From Styela clava (Eukaryota; Chordata; Ascidiacea; Stolidobranchia; Styelidae): a stretch of 64,000 nucleotides of DNA. Both the position numbers and the translations under genes were made by a program. The stretch covers positions 9,663,001 to 9,727,000 of the forward strand of contig NC_135258.1 of the NCBI RefSeq assembly GCF_964204865.1, given 5' to 3'. Below, piece by piece: positions 1,152 through 59,131 of the stretch; position 1 is the stretch's first letter, and each line of letters begins with the position of its first letter. The notes under the pieces were generated by a model, which saw only the letters and a list, made by a program, of their open reading frames with translations, searched no databases and was not told the DNA's origin.

Positions 1152-4100
1152 TTAATCAGTTTTCTTCTTATTTTCAACCTCAACGTAGTTGCGAGCAACG
1201 TATTTCAGTCCTTCGTCGATGATAATGACTGGAAGAGAGATCTTGAGAACCATCATCCATTCTGCAAAGCTCAGTGGGCAAATCTGGAACACCATTGGAA
1301 GAGGGTCGACATACAGGATAACGAAATGAAGAGATAGTGAGAGAAGGATAGCACCGATCAGCCAAAGGTTTTGCCATGGTGGCATGACGAGAAGCGATTG
1401 GTTTTCAGAAACGGAGTTAAGAGCGTTGCACAACTCGATGATGACGAGGACAGACAAAGCCATGGTCATTGGATGAGGATCTTCGAAGATCTTGCAAGTG
1501 ATTCCTTCGAATAATTCTGGGCTTGAATGGCACGACATATAGTGAGTTACTTGCCACCAAGACATTTGTGGACCTGTTTCGGAGTAGAGAAACCACCATG
1601 TGGATGCTCCTACAGTTGCAGCTCCGACGTAAACTCCAATAACGCAATATCTGCACAACAACCAGCCGTTGATAAGGGTGTCTTTAGTGGATCGTGGCTT
1701 CTTGTCCATGATGTCCAAATCTGGTGGGTTGAAGCTGAGAGCAGTGGCTGGAAGACCATCGGTAACCAAGTTGACCCAGAGAAGTTGAACTGGAATGAGA
1801 GCTTCAGGAACGCCGAGAGCGGCGGCGAGGAAAATACAAACAACTTCGCCAATGTTAGATGAAATTAGATACCGGATGAATTGTTTCATATTGTTGTAGA
1901 TTGCACGTCCTTCTTCAACAGCTGCTACGATTGAAGTAAAGTTGTCGTCAGCAAGAACCATTTCTGCAGCGGTTTTAGCGACTGCAGTTCCGCTTCCCAT
2001 AGCAATTCCGATTTCAGCTTTTTTAAGAGCTGGGGCGTCGTTAACACCGTCGCCAGTCATTGCAGTAACGTCTCCATTCGCTTGAAGGTATTCGACGATT
2101 TTGCTTTTATGTGATGGTTCAACGCGAGCAAAAAGTCGTGCGCGAAGGCAAGCTTTAAATTGTTCATGTTTGGACAAATCGTCAAATTCACGACCTGTGT
2201 AAGCCAATCCTTCAGTACACTCGTCCTCGCCAAAAACTCCAATGCGGCGGCAAATGGCTTCAGCGGTTGCTTTGTTATCTCCAGTGATGACGATAACTCG
2301 AATTCCTGCAGCTTTGCATTCTTGGATCGCTTGGTAGACTTCAGTACGAGGTGGGTCAAGCATGCCTACAACTCCGACAAATGTGATTTCTGTTTCGTAA
2401 CTGGCAAATTTAGTTGATTCTGTCAAATCCATGCTTGAAGGATTGGCTGGATTATCAATGGTTCCTAGTGCGATGCATCGGAGAGTATCTTTTCCAGTTC
2501 CGTATTCTTTTACAACAGACATGATTTGTTCACGAATAGCGGGTGTCATCATCATCTTTTGGTTTCCTACTCGAACGTAAGTGCATCTATCTAAAATACC
2601 TTCTGGTGCTCCCTTGACAAACATTTTCGGTCCAATTGGAGAATCTAAGTTGGCTGGTGTGCAATAAGCACTCATCGATTTGCGATCTCTGGAGAATTCA
2701 AGAGTAAACACTTTCTTCATCATGTTTTTAATGGTTTGACAACAAGCGTTGGCTCGTTGAGCTTTGCTTAGACTAGACACGTCGGTGTTGAATACGTTCA
2801 TTTTTTCACAAAGTACAGTGAGAGCAGTTTCAGTGGCTTCTCCGACTTTTTCGTAGATACCTTTGCCTTCATTGTAATCCAAAGATGAGTCGTTGCACAG
2901 TGCACATATGGTAGAGAGTTCGACGAGTGAGTCGTAGCTGCCAGGATTGATTTTCTTTCCATCAAGCATAACATCGCCAACAGGTTCGTAGGTTGATCCA
3001 GAGATTGTGAATTGGTTGAAAGTTGCTTGTTGAGCTTCGAGGGCTTTGAAGACAAACATGCGACAGACGGACATTTGGTTTGTAGTCAAGGTACCGGTCT
3101 TATCAGAGCAGATCACGGACGTGCATCCCAAAGTTTCTACCGATGGAAGGCTACGGACAATTGCGTTCTTGGTTGCCATACGTCGCGTTCCGAGGGCCAA
3201 ACAAGTTGTGATGACTGCGGGAAGTCCTTCAGGAATTGCTGCAACAGCTAAGGCGACGGCAATTTTAAAATAGTAGACTGCTCCTTTTATGACGGATCCA
3301 CCGTGAATTGGATCGTTGAAATGACCAATGTTGATTGCCCAGACAGCGATGCAGATAATCGTGATAATCTTTGATAGCTGGTTTCCAAATTCATCAAGTT
3401 TTTGCTGAAGTGGAGTCTTTTCATTTTCAGTTTCGGCCATCTCGTTTCTAATTTTTCCAATTTCGGTGTTACTTCCAGTGCCGACAACAATTCCTACGGC
3501 CTTTCCAGCAGCAATGTTGGTTCCGGAGAAAAGCATATTTTTCTTATCTTGGTTAACTGCACGCAGATCGGGAACGGCATCGGTATGTTTGATAATGCTG
3601 ACGCTTTCACCAGTAAGAATTGCTTGATCGACCCGAAGAGTTGTGGACTTGATCGCAATAAGTCGGATGTCAGCTGGAACTTTGTCTCCAACTGCCACTT
3701 CGACGATGTCGCCAGGAACAATCTCACTTGCTCGAATTCTTTGAACTGATGCACGATCTTGACGCAAAACTTTTCCCATCTCTGGTTCATATTCTTTCAA
3801 AGCCTCGATGGCGCTCTCTGCATTTCTCTCTTGCCAGATTCCAACAACGGCGTTAGCGATGAGAATCAACAGGATTACAAATGGTTCCACAAAAGCAGTG
3901 ATAGTTTCTTCTCCGTCTTCAAAAAGTGCAAGAACAAAGGAAATAATGGCAGCCAACAGTAGGATTCGGACGAGAAGATCTTCAAATTGTTCTACAAGAA
4001 GTTCCCACAAGCTTTTTCCTTCTTCGACTGGAAGTTCGTTAGGCCCATATTTTCTTCGATTTTCTCTGACTTGTTCTGGTTTTAAACCGGTTGTTTCGGA

Positions 4101-4154
4101 AACGTTGAAGAATTCGAGAACCTCCTCGTTCTCTTTCGCAAATGCGTGTTCCAT
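1152..4154 (-). CDS. SERCA-type calcium-transporting P-type ATPase, copy 1 (intronless CDS)
   Basis: A P2A ATPase of 1000 residues that would pump calcium from the cytosol into the sarco/endoplasmic reticulum. It can be matched almost without gaps to vertebrate SERCA1 as far as the phosphorylation site. It shows TGES of the actuator domain (about 181-184), PEGLP (about 308-312), the phosphorylated Asp351 in [16 protein letters not shown] near 701-709, and the ion ligands in NIGE (about 771), NLVTD (about 796-800) and the IIELCNAL helix (about 908). The two lumenal loop 7-8 cysteines are there, and so is the thapsigargin-contact Phe near 256. The KDDKPV phospholamban-contact motif near 397-402 is not (LDGKKI instead). 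The whole CDS is one exon, whereas vertebrate ATP2A genes have over 20. It starts 35 bases after a 5'UTR splice acceptor. The C-terminus is KKKTD. Confidence 0.97.
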
Positions 4155-59100: not shown

Positions 59101-59131
59101 TGAAGTAGAAAATAAGAAGAAAACTGAATAG
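56129..59131 (+). CDS. SERCA-type calcium ATPase, copy 4 (intronless CDS)
   Basis: 1000 residues with all family motifs present. Own changes include ENKEVLE, DRVSVQ, Gly373 (ALGAQQ), PIGDVM, NESKG, GEEECTE and KYIARNY; the C-terminus is KKKTE. It groups with copy 3 by Leu369, ESPIG and the final Glu, though about 18 positions differ between the two. Nucleotide identity to the other copies is very high across the whole CDS and drops abruptly at the stop codon. Confidence 0.97.

Follow-up and report, generated by a model that had tools for sequence, protein, structure and literature searches.

Four single-exon SERCA genes in Styela clava: an apparently mRNA-derived cluster whose likeness is best explained by gene conversion

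Four SERCA genes in a 64-kb window

The window analyzed here is a 64-kb stretch of the 377-Mb assembly of the ascidian Styela clava (C10:9663001-9727000; positions without a contig name are counted within the window), and its main feature is a cluster of four genes, A to D, that encode the SERCA calcium pump (Table 1). An earlier note on this DNA had described four nearly identical SERCA genes of 1000 codons with single-exon coding sequences, and our analysis bears this out: the four open reading frames (ORFs) encode proteins with the identical set of seven Pfam matches, those of a P-type Ca-ATPase (P2A calcium ATPase), and pairwise identities are 94.0–95.2% for the coding DNA and 98.2–99.2% for the proteins. 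The cluster has two orientations, A and B lying on the reverse strand and C and D on the forward strand, and two lipoxygenase genes sit between A and B. The ORF listed for copy C spans 45259-48324 (+); its start homologous to those of the other copies is at 45322, the upstream ATG falling inside the putative intron of the 5′ untranslated region (5′UTR) described below.

Residues 1–993 of copy A align with the solved SERCA1 and SERCA2 in the PDB. All four copies are identical to the PDB SERCA1 chain at the DKTGT phosphorylation motif, the TGES motif of the actuator, the TGDN hinge, GDGVND and the ATP-site columns, and their calcium site I and II ligand columns equal those of the same chain; the pump is thus that of the vertebrate ATP2A1-3 genes (SERCA1-3), with catalytic and calcium-binding residues unchanged. 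At column 834, all seven genomic copies have leucine instead of the phenylalanine of SERCA1, while threonine instead of aspartic acid at column 887, beside the luminal cysteine, is confined to the four cluster copies. The ratio of nonsynonymous to synonymous change (dN/dS) is 0.018–0.041 in all six cluster pairs, which indicates that all four copies encode proteins under strong purifying constraint.

Table 1. Features of the SERCA cluster and SERCA genes on other contigs (predicted introns are deduced from splice sites)
Feature	Position	Strand	Details
SERCA copy A	1152-4154	-	single coding exon, 1000 codons
SERCA copy B	36146-39148	-	single coding exon, 1000 codons
SERCA copy C	45322-48324	+	single coding exon, 1000 codons
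SERCA copy D	56129-59131	+	single coding exon, 1000 codons
Predicted 5′UTR intron of A	4190-4396	-	207 nt, GTAAGT donor
Predicted 5′UTR intron of B	39184-39398	-	215 nt, GTAAGT donor
Predicted 5′UTR intron of C	44901-45274	+	374 nt, GTAAAG donor
Predicted 5′UTR intron of D	55868-56083	+	216 nt, GTAAGT donor
Promoter block and exon 1 of A	4397-4640	-	E-box 4579-4585, T-box 4483-4491, TATAAA 4467-4472, predicted start ~4430-4443
Promoter block and exon 1 of B	39399-39643	-	E-box 39583-39589, T-box 39485-39493, TATAAA 39469-39474
Promoter block and exon 1 of C	44711-44900	+	E-box 44713-44720, T-box 44805-44813, TATAAA 44824-44829
Promoter block and exon 1 of D	55668-55867	+	E-box 55673-55679, T-box 55772-55780, TATAAA 55791-55796
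A/B duplication unit	778-4644	-	3.9 kb, 93% identical to 35769-39647
Intron-rich SERCA	C1:14970823-14945734		22 coding exons, 21 introns, 1004 residues plus stop
Intronless full-length SERCA	C6:18747647-18750652		
Intronless full-length SERCA	C18:15713783-15716797		

Predicted non-coding first exons and shared promoter words

It had further been proposed that each copy has an intron at the same place in its 5′UTR. Alignment of the upstream regions agrees with this for all four: a conserved short first exon, its 3′ end reading AAAGA(G/A)AG, is followed by a GT donor, and every candidate intron ends in the acceptor TTTTCAG, 35–47 nt upstream of the ATG. The conservation of donor, acceptor, TATA box and start sequence makes a cis-spliced non-coding first exon the simplest reading of these sites; trans-splicing onto the same 5′UTR acceptor may be an alternative.

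The only 9-mers common to the 1-kb upstream regions of all four copies are (i) TAGCAGCTG, which lies in the E-box; (ii) AGGTGTGAA, which lies in the T-box; and (iii) four 9-mers in the first exon, all within GTTTTCTTCTCT. Shuffled upstream regions shared 0.0 such words on average (200 single-base shuffles); since the real promoters share ancestry, the shared words show retention, not independent gain. Within the window, AGGTGTGAA occurs four times, once per SERCA promoter and each time starting 19 nt before TATAAA, while 1.08 matches are expected for the pattern AGGTGTGAW, four being reached in one of 100 shuffles. The word matches the reverse complement of GWTCACACCT, at 10 of 10 positions in A and at nine of 10 in each of the other three copies; this consensus is the SELEX (systematic evolution of ligands by exponential enrichment) site of Ciona Tbx6-related (Tbx6-r) given in a review, which also states that most tail-muscle promoters have Tbx6-r and Mrf sites (PMC6589888). 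CAGCTG is present in all four SERCA promoters, and GCAGCTG has 10 matches in the window versus 2.63 expected, five of them inside these promoters.

Upstream of the SERCA genes on contigs C1, C6 and C18 described below (6, 2 and 2 kb scanned, respectively), no Tbx6-type site was found within one mismatch, and those on C1 and C6 have one distant CAGCTG each. A genome-wide search with the 251-bp block of copy A for a gene that might have donated the promoter returned four candidates, solely the four SERCA promoters themselves. Exact TGACGTCA words (cAMP response element, CRE) lie 1.58 kb (A) and 1.21 kb (B) before the ATG, and none was found within 2 kb for C and D.

As a genome-wide marker of muscle genes, the T-box and TATA combination was rejected: AGGTGTGAA followed by TATAAA after 8–12 bases has 28 matches in the genome versus 16 in a reversed control, and no other muscle gene was recognised by eye among them. 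Eight of the 28 have the exact SERCA spacing of 10, four of these being the SERCA genes, and several of the other 24 sites have similar, repeat-like surroundings.

In the relevant passages of a study of Ciona, Atp2a (KH.L116.40) is expressed in tail muscles and in columnar cells of the papilla (PMC7397655). Because the promoters carry Tbx6-r- and Mrf-type sites, and given the published tail-muscle pattern, the cluster copies are likely to be expressed in muscle. The muscle part of the earlier note's reading is backed here by promoter sequence together with the Ciona pattern.

An intron-rich SERCA gene and other intronless copies

A genome-wide protein search with SERCA gave a list of 37 matches, the best candidates, from which all copy numbers reported here are taken. 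Among the matches listed are the four cluster genes, the intronless full-length copies on C6 and C18, and a SERCA matched exon by exon on C1; weaker matches in the same search on C4, C6, C10 and C18 are presumably other P-type ATPases. A search for an intron-containing SERCA elsewhere in the genome had been put forward as a check on the origin of the cluster, and the C1 gene, with 22 coding exons, is such a gene. Its model, for which splice sites were picked by best fit to copy A, has one continuous frame with 20 GT-AG introns and one GC-AG intron and includes an 18-nt microexon. Vertebrate SERCA genes are intron-rich, and it is the C1 gene, not the cluster, that resembles them in this respect.

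The C1 gene has two versions of exon 17 (17a and 17b, at C1:14947848-14948636) of 86 nt each, 62% identical and with good splice sites, which suggests mutually exclusive splicing into two pump isoforms. The C6 copy shares 25 of 29 residues with exon 17b and 18 of 29 with 17a, and for this reason it is most simply read as the copy of one particular spliced mRNA isoform. The cluster copies are ambiguous between the versions, with 18 of 29 residues matching 17a and 16 of 29 matching 17b.

Among the matches listed, there are thus 21 coding introns in the C1 gene versus none in six copies on three other contigs. Because an intron-containing SERCA is present in the same genome, the intronless state of the cluster would be the derived one, and the cluster is apparently mRNA-derived, that is, a retrogene lineage, the step of reverse transcription itself being one that we infer. 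In a maximum-likelihood protein tree, the C1 and C6 genes pair with support of 99.9/100, and C18 joins the cluster with 98.5/98; within the cluster, support is low, at 85.8/73 for A with B and 66.4/45 for the addition of C. The earlier note had offered a single intron-loss or retroposition event as the simplest story. Retroposition is retained here and the single event is not: because C6 groups with the intron-rich C1 gene rather than with the remaining intronless copies, two or more retropositions appear to be required: C6 would go back to one of them, and the cluster and C18 to one or two others.

The proportion of synonymous differences (pS) between the cluster and the C1 gene is 0.76–0.78, and 0.76–0.81 when C6 and C18 are included, which is near saturation; by this measure, the cluster is old relative to the C1 gene. 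A remnant poly-A tail and target-site duplications are not expected to survive at such divergence. How old the retrogene may be is the subject of a further explanation, in which intronless SERCA is the old tunicate state, the retrogene predating the tunicate radiation and the cluster being a late expansion of it. The protein identity between cluster and C1 (80.7%) is little above the 75% to PDB SERCA1, and the near-saturation of synonymous sites points the same way; we regard this possibility as a serious one, if somewhat short of even odds. It would bear on when the event took place rather than on what kind of event it was.

Duplication and probable gene conversion within the cluster

Duplication at the DNA level, the last stage of the history proposed in the earlier note, is evident, and by itself it appears insufficient to explain the likeness of the coding exons. 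A and B are the only pair that aligns well outside the coding sequence, with 162 of 206 intron positions (78.6%) and 216 of 247 positions of the 3′ flank (87.4%) identical. In the other five pairs, intron and 3′-flank identities are 45–56% as against 41–53% in shuffles (ten shuffles of one intron pair), promoter block identities are 66–79%, and high-identity homology ends at the ATG and the stop codon, C and D sharing some 57 more bases upstream. Despite this, pS is 0.19–0.23 in every cluster pair and is the same for A-D (0.194) and B-C (0.195) as for A-B (0.189); differences at fourfold sites range from 0.155 to 0.202, with overlapping intervals.

The polymorphic sites form a mosaic. Of 80 sites at which two copies share one base and two another, 36 group A with D and B with C, 31 group A with B and C with D, and 13 group A with C and B with D. 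The first and last of these counts are uneven (P 0.0014), and the sites are clustered (38 runs vs 50.6 expected, P 0.0013). The longest tract in which A equals D runs through 15 polymorphic sites in a row, out of 296 (P 0.001), and the single-tract test is significant in three of six pairs (A-D 0.001, C-D 0.0125 and A-B 0.0375). Because A-D and B-C, whose introns and 3′ flanks barely align, are as close at synonymous sites as A-B, and because the mosaic is clustered, gene conversion confined to the still-homologous coding exon explains best why the coding sequences have remained alike.

Three other explanations were weighed. Recent tandem duplication with fast-evolving flanks and no conversion would account for A and B, which differ by 10.5% in the promoter, 12.6% in the 3′ flank and 21.4% in the intron, near their pS of 0.189, as one duplication predicts. 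We consider it unlikely for the cluster as a whole, in view of the A-D and B-C values, in pairs whose intron and 3′-flank identities hardly exceed those of shuffled sequence, if at all, and of site patterns that are clustered and in conflict with a single tree. Still less likely, in our estimate, is that codon selection on highly expressed genes, rather than conversion, holds the synonymous sites. The GC content of third codon positions fits a codon preference, being 0.40–0.42 in the cluster and thus higher than in C1 (0.30), C6 (0.35) and C18 (0.39); however, synonymous sites appear free to change, since they are near saturation against these three genes, and codon selection does not predict a clustered mosaic of the AD|BC and AB|CD patterns. 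Finally, haplotypes or misjoined contigs might have been taken for four genes, as tunicates can be highly heterozygous. The earlier note had named haplotype mis-assembly as a point to check, and the copies do not look like one: all lie on one 23.5-Mb contig in two orientations with differing flanks, pS is near 0.2, and the best flank homology, that of A and B, is limited to 3.9 kb. We therefore judge an assembly artefact very improbable. Conversion acting on duplicated genes is accordingly the explanation we prefer.

Comparison with the actin arrays

Kusakabe reportedly described clusters of ascidian muscle actin genes in 1992 and 1995, and the earlier note had drawn a parallel with multi-copy muscle actin genes. 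The parallel extends to this genome, in which C6 carries actin arrays of five copies at ~8.67–8.70 Mb and two at ~7.50 Mb that appear as two-exon matches; C8 has additional copies. Both systems are arrays of multi-copy genes with a known or likely role in muscle; the actin genes apparently have one coding intron, whereas the SERCA genes encode an ion pump and have none, and the upstream factor sites differ.

Eight actin upstream stretches were taken, seven of which contain the core promoter. In six of these seven, ATCATTCGACAGTT follows TATAAA, and SERCA copy A has ATCATTCAACAGTT at nearly the same distance. The start-site word ATCATTCRACAGTT has 17 matches in the genome versus 16 in a reversed control: six actin promoters, SERCA copy A and 10 loci elsewhere, five of which were inspected by eye, none resembling a muscle gene. 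Local alignment of four of the eight actin stretches with the four SERCA promoters, a comparison chosen post hoc after the likeness had been noticed, gave P values of 0.002–0.056 for A, 0.004–0.14 for B and 0.05–0.97 for C and D, the likeness being significant with three of the four actins tested for A and likewise for B. Capture of an actin-like promoter by the SERCA cluster was set aside as suggestive only, given the values for C and D and a likeness noticed after the fact.

In the muscle-type actin promoters, conservation extends over a long start region, TATAAATAAG ... ATCATCATTCGACAGTT, which is shared between clusters on two contigs. One actin copy of the C6 array (C6:8687668-8688288) lacks the TATA box, start region and first codons of its neighbours, through either truncation or an assembly gap.

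Other features of the window and the genome

The lipoxygenase genes between A and B, at 9863-18480 and 23831-30139 (-), have many exons, with conserved blocks 71–94% identical; the lipoxygenase domain was detected in both and PLAT in the second. Between them lies a hAT transposase remnant with the dimerisation domain (21863-22294, -). Tandem repeat arrays with units of 16–87 bases occupy 34838-35339 and 60590-60905, and a 128-bp stretch outside genes (42954-43081) recurs with 91% identity at 63860-63987. Scanning the window for Rfam families and tRNA genes gave no hits.

Contig C9 carries a GH6 exon (35.4 bits, cut-off 27), from a family that was not found in any of 14 control genomes. It also carries a candidate CelA exon, whose 105.6 bits fall short of the 699.1 set for the whole protein and whose family turns up in 11 of the 14 controls as well. 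The two exons lie on the same strand 2 kb apart, as they would in a tunicate gene for cellulose synthase, and we take the locus as a probable mark of a tunicate genome, in agreement, at the level of tunicates, with the ascidian comparison of the earlier note. To our knowledge, a cellulose synthase joined to GH6 is found among animals only in tunicates.

Discussion

The history that best explains these observations as a whole, to which we assign a probability of roughly three in four, combines retrocopying, a promoter with a 5′UTR intron, duplication, conversion and joint activation in muscle. A SERCA mRNA would have been reverse-transcribed and inserted away from the intron-rich gene. Either by later gain or through the place of its insertion, the retrocopy would have come to lie downstream of a TATA promoter, a short non-coding exon and a 5′UTR intron. 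DNA-level duplication would then have raised the number of copies to four, in both orientations, and 3.9 kb would have been copied between A and B at a later stage. The flanks and introns of C and D would have diverged almost beyond recognition, conversion bounded by the coding exon holding the coding sequences at 94–95% identity and purifying selection keeping all four pumps intact. Because E-box, T-box, TATA box and start sequence are common to all four copies, they are most likely activated together by the tunicate Tbx6-related and Mrf muscle programme, and the array may supply a high dose of the calcium pump of the sarcoplasmic reticulum, as the multi-copy actin arrays would for actin.

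Several observations weigh against parts of this history. With regard to the promoters, (i) common descent could be partly behind the conserved words; (ii) five of the 10 GCAGCTG matches in the window fall outside the SERCA promoters; (iii) the T-box and TATA combination is, by the genome-wide counts given above, unspecific, and inspection by eye of the longest frames within ~1.5 kb downstream of the other 24 loci, made without a family search, revealed no muscle gene; (iv) the start-site likeness to actin is absent in C and D; (v) the SERCA T-box word is found within one mismatch in none of the eight actin upstream stretches, and CAGCTG in only three of them; and (vi) the expression of Ciona Atp2a, which may correspond to either the cluster genes or the C1 gene, extends to cells of the papilla (PMC7397655). 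With regard to origin and conversion, the protein tree has a single outgroup, one PDB SERCA1 chain; the tract test gives P values of 0.19–0.54 for A-C, B-C and B-D, conversion between B and C being indicated by pS alone; and the intron identities of A-C and A-D (56 and 55%) are slightly above the ten shuffles.

A bolder version, which we put forward tentatively and consider closer to one chance in three than to an even one, is that the role of muscle pump passed to retrogenes through at least two copy-backs, one lineage of which gained an actin-like start region and became a converted four-gene dosage array, while the intron-rich gene, with its alternative exons, would have retained the general role.

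The individual ingredients are already known. Altshuler et al. (2012) report several independent, relatively recent tunicate SERCA duplications on the basis of protein phylogeny; their duplicates share duplication with the cluster, and neither 'intron' nor any word starting with 'retro' turned up when their main text was searched for these terms (PMC3527596). The passages on Ciona Atp2a describe a tunicate SERCA in tail muscle and contain neither gene structure nor copy number, the word 'intron' being absent from the text (PMC7397655). Retrogenes with new 5′UTR introns are exemplified by AmphiSYCP1 of amphioxus, which has a single coding exon of ~3.2 kb, a new multi-exonic 5′UTR and a recruited promoter (PMC5803294). 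Like the cluster, it belongs to a chordate gene that is multi-exonic elsewhere and has a single coding exon behind a new 5′UTR; in contrast, its parent gene was lost, whereas S. clava still has an intron-rich paralogue, and its retrogene has given rise to several homogenised copies. The term ATP2A does not appear in the main text of a chordate retrocopy screen that includes Ciona (PMC3136929), and in the open-access literature, most subscription papers and supplements lying outside its scope, we found no paper describing tunicate SERCA genes that are intronless or clustered. As far as the literature searched goes, the combination of a retained intron-rich gene, several retrocopies, a converted four-gene array and a shared muscle-type promoter appears to be a new example.

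The cluster may show how retrocopies gain a spliced 5′UTR and a tissue-specific promoter, conversion keeping the exons alike while the flanks drift. It would also be a natural experiment in which a large intron-rich gene is supplemented, and perhaps replaced in one tissue, by its retrocopies, and four diverged promoters that retain little beyond an E-box, a T-box, a TATA box and a start sequence offer a ready test of the tunicate muscle code. If the bolder version above is true, intron-poor arrays maintained by conversion would be a general tunicate way to drive muscle genes hard and fast within a short embryogenesis.

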